Source: Saprospiraceae bacterium (lineage in GTDB: Bacteria > Bacteroidota > Bacteroidia > Chitinophagales > Saprospiraceae). From it: a stretch of 64,000 nucleotides of DNA. This document shows positions 58,118-63,911 of this stretch, piece by piece. A model generated the notes under the pieces. The model did not search any database, was not told where the DNA came from, and saw only the letters and a list, made by a program, of their open reading frames with translations. Both the position numbers and the translations under genes were made by a program. The stretch is taken from contig JAGFJA010000066.1 of NCBI GenBank assembly GCA_024103005.1, positions 1 through 64,000 on the forward strand, read 5' to 3'. The first letter of the stretch is position 1, and the number at the start of each line of letters is the position of its first letter.

Positions 58118-58477
58118 ATGAATTCGTTATACAAAAAAAGTATAATGAGAGCAATTGCTACAACCTTCCTGTTGCTGATAACATCACTAACCTATGCGCA
58201 GAAAGTTTTCTCCGTTGAGTACCAAAATCAAGCAGATGTCAAAGTCTATGTGGTCAAATACGAAAGTCAGGCCGATCTGAAGGTATATAAGGTCAAATAT
58301 TCGAGTCAGGCCGGTAAAAACGACGGAAAATGGTACTTTACCGAATATTCCAGCCAAGCCGACAAAAAAATCTATTTTGTGGACTATGAAAATCAGGCCG
58401 ATGTAAAAATCTACTTTGTGGATTACGAAAATCAGGCAGGCTGGAGGAATAAAAGCAAGATGCAGTATTTTTATTGA
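58118..58477 (+). CDS. DUF6150 / 7(1) septoil-knot-type repeat protein, secreted
   Basis: A 119-residue exported protein made of six short tandem units after its signal peptide. Each unit reads about VKxYxVxYxxQAD: KVFSVEYQNQAD, VKVYVVKYESQAD, LKVYKVKYSSQAG, KWYFTEYSSQAD, KKIYFVDYENQAD and VKIYFVDYENQAG. This matches the family I know as DUF6150, renamed 7(1) septoil knot, whose predicted fold is a deeply knotted chain. The name is recall; the repeats are seen directly. ATGs at 58118 and 58145 are both possible, the second giving a compact signal MRAIATTFLLLITSLTYA. Confidence 0.75.
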   Translation: MNSLYKKSIMRAIATTFLLLITSLTYAQKVFSVEYQNQADVKVYVVKYESQADLKVYKVKYSSQAGKNDGKWYFTEYSSQADKKIYFVDYENQADVKIYFVDYENQAGWRNKSKMQYFY

Positions 58478-58806
<329 letters not shown>

Positions 58807-59099
58807 ATGAAATCTTTTATTATTTTAGCAGTCATGATGCTTGCGGTCAATTTCAGCAGTACCTTGGAAGATCAATCGAATTCCCAACGAATGAAAATGT
58901 AAGTTGCGTGGATATTCAAGATGTTCCGGTGAAGACAGATAGGAATGATTGGAAAGTTCGTTACAATGTCCTTGTCGATGATGGTTGTAAGGGTGTTTAT
59001 GAATACCAAGTCTTGGTTTACAATCCTATTACAGGTGTCTTTGAATGGTTTTCGTACAAGATGGATTGCATCTGTAAGGATTGTAATTGTACTTGTTGA
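58807..59099 (+). pseudogene. Small secreted Cys-rich protein with a broken reading frame
   Basis: The ATG at 58807 opens a clear signal peptide (MKSFIILAVMMLAVNFSS), but that frame stops after 31 codons at 58900-58902. A second frame, shifted by one base, runs on to 59099 as PTNENVSCVDIQDVPVKTD, a central DDGCKGVYEYQVLVYNP and a C-terminus MDCICKDCNCTC. Together they would make a protein of about 97 residues with seven Cys, five clustered at the end. The break may be a real mutation, a sequencing or assembly error, or recoding. No convincing slippery heptamer is seen. A strong hairpin follows at 59111. Confidence 0.6.
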
Positions 59100-59110
59100 T
59101 TTTATAATAC

Positions 59111-59137
59111 AAGTCCTCCTAACAATTAGGAGGACTT
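59111..59137 (+). terminator. Perfect 12-bp hairpin between the Cys-rich gene and the next gene
   Basis: AAGTCCTCCTAA and its exact complement enclose a 3-base loop (CAA). It is followed by an AT-rich stretch rather than a pure U-run, and the next ATG comes 19 bases later. It could end most transcripts after the small protein or stabilise its mRNA, giving less expression of downstream genes. Confidence 0.7.
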
Positions 59138-59156
59138 AAATTAAATAAATTTTAAA

Positions 59157-59822
59157 ATGAGAACCTTAATTTTTTGCATTATTTTGGCAGTGTCGTTACC
59201 GTACGCAATGGATTCTCAGACATGCTATCACGCCATATACAAAAACGTCTCGGGGCAAAATAATTCCAATCCGCCAATACCACAAAATACTCCACAAGAA
59301 GTCACAGAAAATATCAGAAAACAATCTTTAAAAGAAGGGTTTATCCATTGCTATAGTATGGGTGACACCTTGATGGTTTATCCGGTCGAGTTGCATGATC
59401 AATCAGGTGAAGTTGAAAAAATACCTGCACCTATTCACTTGGCAGATTTTAAGAATAAAGTGATTTATTCATATAGAGATGGAGAATCGGAAATGCTTCA
59501 AACTCCAATGGCCAATTACTTTATCACTGATGACGCTGAGGTTGAATACAACGGACAAAAAGTAAAAACAGCCTATAATAGCAAACAAAATGATGTAAGG
59601 ATAAAATACAAGACAGGCTATCCCATTGCTATGCCCTACCCTTCGTGGGACAAACCCGCCACCATATTTGAATTCACTGTTGATTACGGGGTAAACTTCC
59701 AGTTACAGCAGATAAAAAAAGAGAGTACAGGATGCCCTTTCCCGGATTTCAGTAAATACAAGATAAAGTCTTTGGACAATGATAAGGGAAAAGACAAAGT
59801 CCCGCATAAAGGTCAAAATTAA
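59157..59822 (+). CDS. Uncharacterised secreted protein in a GLPGLI-like position
   Basis: A 221-residue exported protein (signal MRTLIFCIILAVSLPYAM). The body is beta-rich and ends in a charged Lys/Asp tail (LDNDKGKDKVPHKGQN). It contains four Cys and a Pro-rich N-terminal stretch. Its size and position just before an outer-membrane receptor resemble GLPGLI-family proteins of Bacteroidota, but the GLPGLI motif itself is not present, so membership is only a guess. It follows the hairpin after the Cys-rich gene and precedes the receptor by 36 bases. Confidence 0.65.
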   Translation: MRTLIFCIILAVSLPYAMDSQTCYHAIYKNVSGQNNSNPPIPQNTPQEVTENIRKQSLKEGFIHCYSMGDTLMVYPVELHDQSGEVEKIPAPIHLADFKNKVIYSYRDGESEMLQTPMANYFITDDAEVEYNGQKVKTAYNSKQNDVRIKYKTGYPIAMPYPSWDKPATIFEFTVDYGVNFQLQQIKKESTGCPFPDFSKYKIKSLDNDKGKDKVPHKGQN

Positions 59823-59858
59823 TTGGCAAAAGCTTAATATGCAGTAAAGAAAACTAAA

Positions 59859-62399
59859 ATGCCAAAAAAAGGCCTAAGATATCGGTTTCATTATATCTTG
59901 GTTGTATATGCCTTGTTTGGTTCGCTTAGTGTATATAGTCAATATCAACTGAGTGGGTATGTCAGAAATAAAGAATTGGGCAATGTGGAATATTGCAACA
60001 TTATCTTTAAAGACAGTCATGGAGTACAAATAGGCTATACAGTCACTGATGCAGACGGCTTCTGGCAATATTCATCTCCGATAGAACAATTGATTCTGTG
60101 TACTCAGGCCGGATTCTATAAGGATACCTGCTTCAGTATAATCATCAATAAAATCAAATCTCCTATATATATCAATGTCTCCAATAGTATCCAACTCCTC
60201 CCGGAGGTCAAAATTATAAGTTCCCGAGCATATAAGATAAGGGGCGACACGACCTTTTTTAATAATAAATACTACGAACAGCATTTAGACAAAACTTTGG
60301 GGGATGTAATCAATAGAATTCCTCAATTTTCATGGAGTAAATCAGGCCGATTAGAATATAATGGGAAAGAAATCCGGGATTTAAGTATAAATGGATTCAA
60401 TATCTTTGACAAAGACCATCAAGCAATAAACAGGAGCATCAATAAGGACAACATAAATACCATTGCTATCATCGAGTCAAAAAATGAATCAAACGATATA
60501 GTTTACTCTTTAAATTTAGGCTTGGAGGAAAAGGCAAAAAACAAGGTGCTGGGTAGTCTGGATATTAAAAGTAATATAAAAAATACCGAATTGGAATCAA
60601 ATCCATATACGGTATCAACACAAACAGCGTTCAGTGGAGTAGTCAGAATAAGCGACAATGCTGCTTTGTTACAGATTGACCGGACAGAATATGGCAGAAA
60701 TTATTTTATGAGTATTTTTCCCAGCCCATATCAAAATCAGGTTTTTATTGAGCCTCCTCAAATAGCTGATATTTCTTCCTCCGGTAACAAACAATGGTCC
60801 GCAAAACTAAACAGCAACATCCATCGAAAAAAAACTACAGATTTGACCATCAATTGGTCGCCGGGATACTATAACAATATATCTTCCCGCGAATTTGAGT
60901 TGGTGACGACAGCGACCGAGAAACCTCTAAGATGGCTCATCAGAGAAAAAATGAATCTATTAGTCAACAATGCCAATGTCTCAATAAAATCAAAAAACAG
61001 TAAGGGATTAGAAATCAAATTTGATTGTCCGGTAAGTTTTTATAAATATCAAACACAGAAAGACATTAATGGAGACCTAATTCCCGAGGAATCATTTAGC
61101 AATACCAATTGGCAATCTCTTCAGATATCACCAGTATTGTCGATGTCCTCATCATTAAGCAGCAAAGTATCTCACGATTTTTTTGTAGGATACACATATA
61201 AGGGAATTCCTACTTACTTCAACTTGATCAAAATCCAATCAAACGAATTAAATCAGCAGACAAATAATTCTATTCAGCAGGCCTTTTTTCATAGCAGAAC
61301 ATATTGGAAAATAAACAAATGGCACATAGTTAATAACCTCCAATTTTCAACTACTTCAAATAGGTATTCTCAGAAAGTAAATAAATCGACCACACATTTA
61401 CAATCCAATGAATACATAATAATGGATCGATTAGTGGGCACCTATACTTACAATCCTTTGGAAATCACCGGATGTATTGAGATCCCATTATATTGGACAA
61501 TGCAATACAATCAAAACAAACTGAATCGCAACCAAATAAATGAAGAAATTACGCTCAGGTGGAAGCCAAAAAATGAAATGATATTTATTATAAAAGGTTT
61601 TAATGCATCTTATTATTGTAATCCTGATCAGTGGGAGAATGGATACAGATACACAGAATTTAACACAGTCGAAAATGGTACAATAAACCCTCTCACTCCT
61701 GTTAAAACTAAGGGATTGTCGGTAAATATGAATCTATTTTCCACAGGGAAAATCAATTACATGATAAGCTATAACTTCTCCGATTCAGACAATCCAATCA
61801 CAAGAAGGATGAGTATTGACACCGGTCTAAATGTGTTGACATGGATACAAGATAAAAACCAAAAATCTCATACAATCAACTCTTACCTTTCCATCGCAAC
61901 AAAGAAGAAACTATTTTTCCAATTTAGTTCAATATTCAACAAGTCAGTCTATTTAGAACAAAATGACACCAGATCAGGTACATTAAATGCAGAAGGCAAC
62001 ATAAATGTCTCTTTTCCAATAAATAATTCTATTGAAGCTACAGGTTGCGGCAAGGTTAATTACTCCAGTTATCAGGTTCTATCAGAGAATTACAGTAATC
62101 TGTGGTTTAATACTGGTTTAAAAATAAAGACAAAATTGAAAAAAATTGGAATTGAGCTTGAATATAGCTATATGGAAAATTTAAGTGAAAAAGCCATTCA
62201 GCATCTAAACATTTTTAATGCTGAAGCAGCTTATAATATTAAGAATAATACAATATCTTTTTATATCAAAGGATATAACCTGTTAAATATCAATAAAGTA
62301 CAATTTACACAAGCATCAGTATATAACAACTACAGTGAAAGTAACATCTTTAGTGTCAATCCGGCACGATTATATGTCGGAATAAGGATTTTAAAATAA
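59859..62399 (+). CDS. Outer-membrane receptor-like barrel with carboxypeptidase-regulatory-like domain
   Basis: An 846-residue exported protein, shorter than most TonB-dependent receptors. The N-terminus carries a CarboxypepD_reg-like domain (LSGYVRNKELGNVEYCNIIFK, about residues 31-115). A plug-like domain follows (IRGDTTFFNNKYYEQHL, then VINRIPQFSWSKSGRLEYNG and LSINGFNIFDKDHQAIN). The rest, about 230-846, is a barrel of alternating strands ending LYVGIRILK. This layout matches receptors paired with GLPGLI-type proteins. Substrate unknown. It is the third gene after the Cys-rich and 221-aa genes. Confidence 0.78.
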   Translation: MPKKGLRYRFHYILVVYALFGSLSVYSQYQLSGYVRNKELGNVEYCNIIFKDSHGVQIGYTVTDADGFWQYSSPIEQLILCTQAGFYKDTCFSIIINKIKSPIYINVSNSIQLLPEVKIISSRAYKIRGDTTFFNNKYYEQHLDKTLGDVINRIPQFSWSKSGRLEYNGKEIRDLSINGFNIFDKDHQAINRSINKDNINTIAIIESKNESNDIVYSLNLGLEEKAKNKVLGSLDIKSNIKNTELESNPYTVSTQTAFSGVVRISDNAALLQIDRTEYGRNYFMSIFPSPYQNQVFIEPPQIADISSSGNKQWSAKLNSNIHRKKTTDLTINWSPGYYNNISSREFELVTTATEKPLRWLIREKMNLLVNNANVSIKSKNSKGLEIKFDCPVSFYKYQTQKDINGDLIPEESFSNTNWQSLQISPVLSMSSSLSSKVSHDFFVGYTYKGIPTYFNLIKIQSNELNQQTNNSIQQAFFHSRTYWKINKWHIVNNLQFSTTSNRYSQKVNKSTTHLQSNEYIIMDRLVGTYTYNPLEITGCIEIPLYWTMQYNQNKLNRNQINEEITLRWKPKNEMIFIIKGFNASYYCNPDQWENGYRYTEFNTVENGTINPLTPVKTKGLSVNMNLFSTGKINYMISYNFSDSDNPITRRMSIDTGLNVLTWIQDKNQKSHTINSYLSIATKKKLFFQFSSIFNKSVYLEQNDTRSGTLNAEGNINVSFPINNSIEATGCGKVNYSSYQVLSENYSNLWFNTGLKIKTKLKKIGIELEYSYMENLSEKAIQHLNIFNAEAAYNIKNNTISFYIKGYNLLNINKVQFTQASVYNNYSESNIFSVNPARLYVGIRILK

Positions 62400-62924: not shown

Positions 62925-63593
62925 TTATATACAGCAATTATTCTGTATTGCTTGGGAAGTACAACAAGCTTTTTTTGCAACATAACCCTGATACATATTT
63001 TTACCAGTTGCTAAGATCATTCCTCCAAGTACCCCCCAGGGCCCTACTACACTACCCGAAATTCCATAAGAAACAATATCGCCGATAGCATTTAATCCAA
63101 CTTGAACTTGTGCATTCTTAATACAGTTCTTATAATCTAAACATGGGTCTGCCCTTTCCTCTAAATCTTCATTAAAATAGGATTCCCAAGCCAACGACAT
63201 TAAATCAATCTTTTCAGAATCTGTTAGTCCAGAATACTTGTTTAAGAAATATAAATACAACTTGATTGATGCTTCTTCCAAATCTTGCAAATTTGAAACA
63301 TTATTTTTAGAAAATTTGTAATAAATTGAGTCAGGAAAGCTAGAATTAACACCCAATAAATTCTCATAATAATTTAAAGAATCTTCTGAAACTTCAGTAT
63401 CAATAAGTTCGAAATAAAGAGGGCGAAGATACGTCTTAATACTATCATCAACAAAGGTAATTACTTTTACAGTTCCAACATTAATATCATTGTCATAATG
63501 CACTTGGTTATGCACTCCAAAACTTTGCTTTTCACAAGAAGTGAATAAAACAGTAATAAATATATAAATACAAACGCAAATTAGATTCTTCAC
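62925..63593 (-). CDS. Uncharacterised lipoprotein with a Gly-rich hydrophobic C-terminal region
   Basis: A 222-residue lipoprotein (start GTG at 63593, MKNLICVCIYIFITVLFTSC, lipobox FTSC). The middle is acidic and helical (for example LYLYFLNKYSGLTDSEKIDLM). The last 55 residues are hydrophobic and Gly-rich (IGDIVSYGISGSVVGPWGVLG) and end in a Cys-rich tail (KKACCTSQAIQNNCCI). Many Bacteroidota lipoproteins of unknown role have such Gly-zipper-like ends, which also resemble pore-forming peptides. No family is recognised. A TTG at 63602 is an alternative start. Confidence 0.7.
   Translation of the reverse strand: MKNLICVCIYIFITVLFTSCEKQSFGVHNQVHYDNDINVGTVKVITFVDDSIKTYLRPLYFELIDTEVSEDSLNYYENLLGVNSSFPDSIYYKFSKNNVSNLQDLEEASIKLYLYFLNKYSGLTDSEKIDLMSLAWESYFNEDLEERADPCLDYKNCIKNAQVQVGLNAIGDIVSYGISGSVVGPWGVLGGMILATGKNMYQGYVAKKACCTSQAIQNNCCI

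Positions 63594-63911
<318 letters not shown>

Follow-up and report, generated by a model that had tools for sequence, protein, structure and literature searches.

Among the described systems closest to the locus reported here is Oar, which is required for secretion of PopC in Myxococcus xanthus and whose type of layout predominates in Bacteroidetes (PMC6434023). The features that tell export from import in TonB-dependent transporters are unknown (PMC6434023). The GLPGLI proteins (TIGR01200) offer a second point of reference, and among the papers that we found mentioning GLPGLI, none gives a function. A third comes from the regulation of nadA, where a tetranucleotide tract 5′ of the promoter controls expression (PMC2791445); we found no paper that describes secreted proteins under repeat-switched control in the group to which the present locus belongs.

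Here we analyze a 64,000-nt stretch of DNA from a Saprospiraceae bacterium (the window), and describe a trio of genes that is best explained as a diverged copy of a recurrent three-gene envelope cassette. Judged by glycyl-tRNA synthetase, the closest named relatives to the host are Saprospiraceae MAGs (75% identity).

Results

Three genes and a hairpin on the forward strand

A preliminary description of this DNA had reported three genes, the first of them a signal-peptide gene with clustered C-terminal cysteines and a one-base frame break, and we recovered all of these where it had placed them. The hairpin, and the repeat-bearing promoter and putative regulon described below, are additions to it. 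The features of the trio are as follows.

58807 to 58902, + strand: 5′ part of the small gene: the start codon, the signal peptide MKSFIILAVMMLAVNFSS and an out-of-frame stretch that runs into a stop (direct translation)
58857 to 59099, + strand: mature Cys-rich part, in a frame one base short of that of the start, 80 residues with 7 Cys (open frame and codon score)
59111 to 59137, + strand: perfect 12-bp hairpin between the small gene and the second gene (−17.9 kcal/mol, z −5.5)
59157 to 59822, + strand: secreted protein of 221 aa, occupying the GLPGLI slot, predicted LolA-like fold, intact and strongly coding
59859 to 62399, + strand: 846-aa barrel of the TonB-dependent-transporter type, with predicted N-terminal domain and plug, intact and strongly coding

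Translation from the ATG at 58807 gives 31 codons and a stop at 58900–58902, while the second frame is open from before 58857 to a stop at 59097–59099 and reads QYLGRSIEFPTNENVSC...MDCICKDCNCTC. The mature part ends in CICKDCNCTC, so that 5 of its 7 cysteines fall within the last 10 residues. Given the base composition, 80 stop-free codons have a probability of about 0.004 per frame, and codon score ranks this frame above the five others, albeit weakly. The Cys-rich piece is single-copy in the host genome. No homologue of the small protein was detectable in 398 genomes, and this includes the intact homologue of the joined frame for which the preliminary description had called. Three weak matches were dismissed as chance, two lying inside ORFs of more than 1000 aa and one overlapping an unrelated gene. 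Located 5′ of the trio, at 58118–58477, is a DUF6150 protein with tandem QADxKxYxVxY repeats (Pfam, 1.1e-25).

The second and third genes

The 221-aa protein had been assigned a GLPGLI-like position, an assignment that gene position and predicted fold bear out and sequence models do not. As in the GLPGLI slot, the protein has a signal peptide and its gene lies directly before the barrel. Searches of Pfam and NCBIfam returned no match to it and TIGR01200 gave none at E ≤ 1; the GP...GLPGLI motif is absent, the aligned stretch reading YPSWDKPATIFEF. Homology to GLPGLI proteins was also considered by profile HMM and hhalign and was dropped, as the score was no better than that of shuffles. No close orthologue was present in 100 relatives. 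The AF2 model (pLDDT 75.6, pTM 0.69) was built from an input alignment of GLPGLI proteins, which biases its fold. Using this biased model, Foldseek matched a PNGF-II-type PNGase (1.3e-7) and the LolA family (from 1.7e-5, probability 1.0), with TM-scores to LolA of about 0.37–0.41 by query length. Because of the alignment bias, the fold claim is firmer for the GLPGLI group than for the 221-aa protein, whose predicted fold is compatible with a LolA-like carrier. GLPGLI proteins occurred in 164 of 249 genomes of the order sampled, often beside such barrels. A TIGR01200 search of the host genome found only two other genes; we considered whether the host's other GLPGLI loci were the same cassette and dropped this, as they belong to other arrangements.

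For the barrel, the AF2 model was of moderate quality (pLDDT 70.6) and matched BtuB, ZnuD, FecA and others in Foldseek, with E-values down to 6.5e-15. There were 163 PDB matches at E ≤ 0.001, and all among the matches listed were TonB-dependent transporters. By its modeled fold the 846-aa protein is a TonB-dependent transporter, and its earlier designation as a receptor-like barrel was correct in this respect. Pfam did not recognize the protein, nor did it find CarboxypepD_reg in it; this domain was found in a barrel relative (L178) at 6.1e-8, and the window barrel model has strands at residues 29–107. No close orthologue was identified by exact peptides. The closest relative of the window barrel, from genome G117 (L176), carries an in-frame stop that divides it into 584 + 282 residues.

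The cassette recurs in relatives with a variable first gene

When the barrel was run as a query against 299 genomes of the order (Chitinophagales), relatives were found in 184 of them, the similarity lying mostly within the ~200 N-terminal residues. A GLPGLI gene lies 5′ of the best of these relatives, and before it there is often a small gene with a signal peptide and paired cysteines. Counting small secreted ORFs with at least 2 mature Cys located 5′ of GLPGLI and barrel genes, we obtained 12 of 33 barrel-anchored loci, compared with 0 of 33 on the reverse strand and 0 of 38 ordinary window genes. Co-occurrence at this level (12/33 vs. 0/33) supports the grouping of the three genes that had first been suggested from the window. 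The grouping would have been refuted had receptor homologues never accompanied Cys-rich small proteins, and in these loci they do accompany small Cys-paired ones. About ten more loci with a small gene were added by eye. GLPGLI-anchored loci with a barrel contained the small gene in 0 of 26 cases, which means that the small protein is no obligatory partner; moreover, since the locus set was enriched for likeness to the window barrel, the small gene is a feature of a single branch within the GLPGLI-barrel family rather than of the whole family.

A profile of seven small proteins identified two non-training members at E < 1e-4, each about 1.1 kb 5′ of a barrel, and a wider profile identified a third new member, in another taxonomic order (1 of 1 at E < 1e-4). 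All three of these out-of-sample proteins are followed by a GLPGLI gene and then a barrel. Profile A5 matches at E ≥ 3e-4 were antisense noise.

The 26 intact small proteins form groups with no detectable similarity between groups, and no Pfam or NCBIfam name was obtained for the small proteins of the slot. They contain from 2 to 10 mature Cys each, and the count is even in 23 of the 26 (p = 4e-5 if the proteins are independent, and several are related to one another), as would be expected of disulfide pairs. Unusually Cys-rich members, with about 10 Cys each, are found in genomes G237 (L044) and G315 (L067), and the former has no ATG before its signal-like segment.

The window small protein has an odd number of cysteines (7) and no sequence homology to the other small proteins of the slot: related profiles score it as they score shuffles, and profiles A1 and A5 of the small Cys protein family did not recover it. 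It is thus assigned to the module by its position, signal peptide, cysteines and hairpin, and not by homology. As non-homologous proteins fill the slot, the lack of a joined-frame homologue does not refute the module. We consider it highly probable that the cassette is real; as far as we could find, this recurring Bacteroidota cassette is unnamed in the literature.

The same loci bear on whether the cassette serves import, with the small protein acting as a released or displayed scavenging ligand for a metal or other nutrient, in the manner of a hemophore, and the barrel retaking the protein or its load. TonB-dependent transporters are mostly importers, the Foldseek neighbors of the barrel are importers that include ZnuD and the hemophore receptor HasR, and the CICKDCNCTC tail could bind metal. 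However, the slot proteins are non-homologous and many have only two Cys, which is not what a single conserved binder of metal or haem would look like. A LolA-like periplasmic partner is also better suited to outward delivery, and we regard import as unlikely.

Hairpins between the first and second genes

The gap between gene 1 and gene 2 folded far better in relatives than its shuffles did, with z ≤ −3 in 13 of 29, compared with 0 of 29 and 2 of 29 in the two controls (p = 3e-5 and 1e-3), and long perfect stems were present in five of the gaps (L047, L049, L055, L201, and L211). Hairpin sequences differ among relatives, which argues that the hairpin is a constrained feature. An RNA family search of the region gave no match. 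The hairpin is probably an attenuator or a 3′-end stabilizer, which would yield more product than machinery.

Frame breaks in the small genes

In the window, the frame of the small gene is lost directly after the signal sequence, and the Cys-rich remainder is open to 59099. Among other cassettes, the small genes of L047 and L069 likewise go out of frame past their signal peptides, and that of L064 has an in-frame stop. Broken genes numbered 4 of ~30 for the small genes vs. 0 of 60 for the GLPGLI genes (p = 0.011); without the window, which is the index case, we estimate p at about 0.03. The small gene of L069, in genome G199, has a C9 homopolymer exactly at the point of frame loss, making this tract a candidate slippage switch. 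Programmed −1 frameshifting was considered for the window, and inspection by eye identified no canonical slippery heptamer at the break; as L069 has its C9 tract and L047 has none, frameshifting is no shared mechanism. Consensus error, decay or switching are all possible sources of the small-gene breaks.

If the small gene were dead or misassembled, the trio would be an unremarkable transporter locus. The small protein has no homologue, draft genomes carry frame breaks, and the host genome (3.46 Mb) is a draft of 80 contigs, of which the window represents essentially one whole contig. Against this, 80 codons are still open, the promoter element, hairpin and partner genes are intact, and the same architecture occurs elsewhere with intact small genes; the completeness of the genome (100%) also disfavors a generally error-rich assembly. 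As an account of the whole locus, ordinary decay or consensus error is in our view very improbable, and even if the break in the window is an error, the recurring cassette stands.

CTTT tracts and a shared promoter-like element

The following features lie 5′ of the trio, beyond it on the opposite strand, and on a second contig of the host genome (G000).

58588 to 58633, + strand: (CTTT)11.5 repeat, 174 bp 5′ of the small-gene ATG (TRF, 100% matches)
58720 to 58757, + strand: promoter-like element of ~40 nt, AGAATAGTTGnAnGnGAAAATAnCTTGAAAAGnGTAG, ~50 bp before the ATG
62925 to 63602, − strand: 225-aa lipoprotein-like gene with C-terminus ACCTSQAIQNNCCI and the same promoter, a presumed co-regulated neighbor outside the trio
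63629 to 63658, − strand: second copy of the element (exact pattern match)
63740 to 63788, − strand: (CTTT)12 repeat, read as AAGA on the + strand, 5′ of the 225-aa gene
Contig C71, 63579 to 63610: CTTT run 5′ of a 217-aa gene (L216)

CTTT runs of at least 6 units are found at only three places in the host genome, two of which flank the trio. Each run precedes a secreted-protein gene and a copy of the ~40-nt element, the latter about 85 bp downstream of the tract. The element before the small gene is 92% identical to the C71 copy and 89% identical to that at 63629–63658. The genome has six copies, all before signal-peptide genes; the element is absent from 60 relatives, two of them congeneric, and the reversed-pattern control gave no copy. 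The 225-aa gene resembles the 217-aa gene (C71:62769-63422) in C-terminus and promoter. Both of these lipoprotein-like genes encode C-terminal ACC...NNCC clusters and belong to no Pfam family.

All six element-bearing genes encode signal-peptide proteins, and five are lipoprotein-like. One element precedes an operon on contig C52 (L226, 4046-6148) that encodes a 164-aa Cys-bearing lipoprotein, a 380-aa lipoprotein-like protein and a 157-aa lipoprotein with a CPGC motif, for which Pfam returned no match. A degraded CTTT tract is retained in the C7 promoter, and the two C52 promoters have poly-T tracts of 11 and 12. The lipoprotein-like gene on C7 (L227, C7:51485) is interrupted by an in-frame stop immediately behind its lipobox and is then open for ~260 codons more. 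Together with the small gene of the trio, which loses frame, this makes two of the six element-bearing genes that are broken directly behind the signal peptide.

One of the two marks of a contingency locus is present here, a simple sequence repeat placed where expression could change; the other would be a tract length that varies between cells and alters expression. The six element loci suggest a phase-variable regulon in which the ~40-nt element, we infer, acts as a promoter, and we see an even chance that the (CTTT)n tract modulates transcription. A repeat-bearing promoter, extreme slot diversity, and broken small genes next to intact neighbors in several genomes are also what a competition cassette might display, in which the small protein would be an antibacterial or kin-recognition factor that the barrel and GLPGLI protein export or protect against, and hypervariability, switching and breakage would reflect conflict. 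Yet no toxin-like domain was found in the small proteins of the slot (Pfam, NCBIfam), no immunity gene was recognized, and no activity is known, and we think this reading improbable.

Discussion

Our preferred reading remains that the trio is a copy of the recurrent envelope cassette. Gene 1 would encode a small Sec-exported protein stabilized by cysteine pairs, the hypervariable slot being the cassette's product; gene 2 would provide the escort for this product, a periplasmic protein whose fold has a LolA-like cavity; and gene 3, a TonB-dependent-transporter-type barrel of Oar layout, would move the product across the outer membrane or display it there. The hairpin after gene 1 would keep the product in excess over its machinery, and the length of the (CTTT)n tract, some 85 bp 5′ of the six-locus element, would probably modulate transcription. 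In the sequenced consensus, the frame break just after the signal peptide would leave the product gene off. Taken whole, with its cargo, carrier, transporter, hairpin and repeat-modulated promoter, this explanation could equally well prove right or wrong.

What the analysis shows is the gene order and its recurrence, the hairpins, the repeats, the shared element, the frame break and, by prediction, the folds; the cargo, carrier and transporter roles, the export direction, the disulfides and the phase switching are what we infer. We think it slightly more probable than not that the small protein is the cargo of the other two and, granted this role, that export is the somewhat likelier direction. 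Oar, of similar layout, is needed for PopC secretion but SusC, which has the same layout, is an importer, and thus layout does not settle direction. That the receptor handles the small protein as a ligand, as first suggested, is plausible, although what it does may be to export the protein and not to capture it. It is conceivable, if doubtful, that the cassette represents an undescribed Bacteroidota outer-membrane delivery system, in which a LolA-like carrier and a dedicated barrel secrete hypervariable disulfide-bonded small proteins, with cargo excess set by an attenuator and a repeat-switched regulon of six promoters.

With a small product that recurs, a fold resembling that of carriers and a gene order that is precise, the "function unknown" of GLPGLI becomes a testable delivery model. 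The cassette is also relevant to the open question of which TonB-dependent transporters are protein exporters (PMC6434023), and the locus suggests that secreted proteins in this group are under repeat-switched control.

Compared with the Oar class (PMC6434023), the locus shares a TonB-transporter barrel with its plug and, putatively, an additional domain at the N-terminus, and Oar does secrete a protein. In contrast, PopC is a 50-kDa protease without a signal peptide, whereas the presumed cargo here is small, Sec-exported and provided with its own periplasmic partner, and the window barrel goes unrecognized by Pfam. The likeness to GLPGLI (TIGR01200) lies in a similar-sized secreted protein directly 5′ of the same barrel class and in a compatible predicted fold, while the 221-aa protein scores at noise level and is without the GLPGLI motif. 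With LolA/LolB, the 221-aa protein may share an open beta-barrel, as its model predicts, and P. gingivalis LolA is among the matches; however, TM-scores are low (about 0.37–0.41), the PNGF-II-type PNGase domain is the better match, and we claim no lipoprotein role for this protein. Finally, as in nadA (PMC2791445) and sabA (PMC4081817), surface or secreted genes have a simple repeat 5′ of their core promoter, but in this genome three promoters carry tracts of one (CTTT) family, a further core element is shared in six copies, and variation in tract length is a candidate feature.
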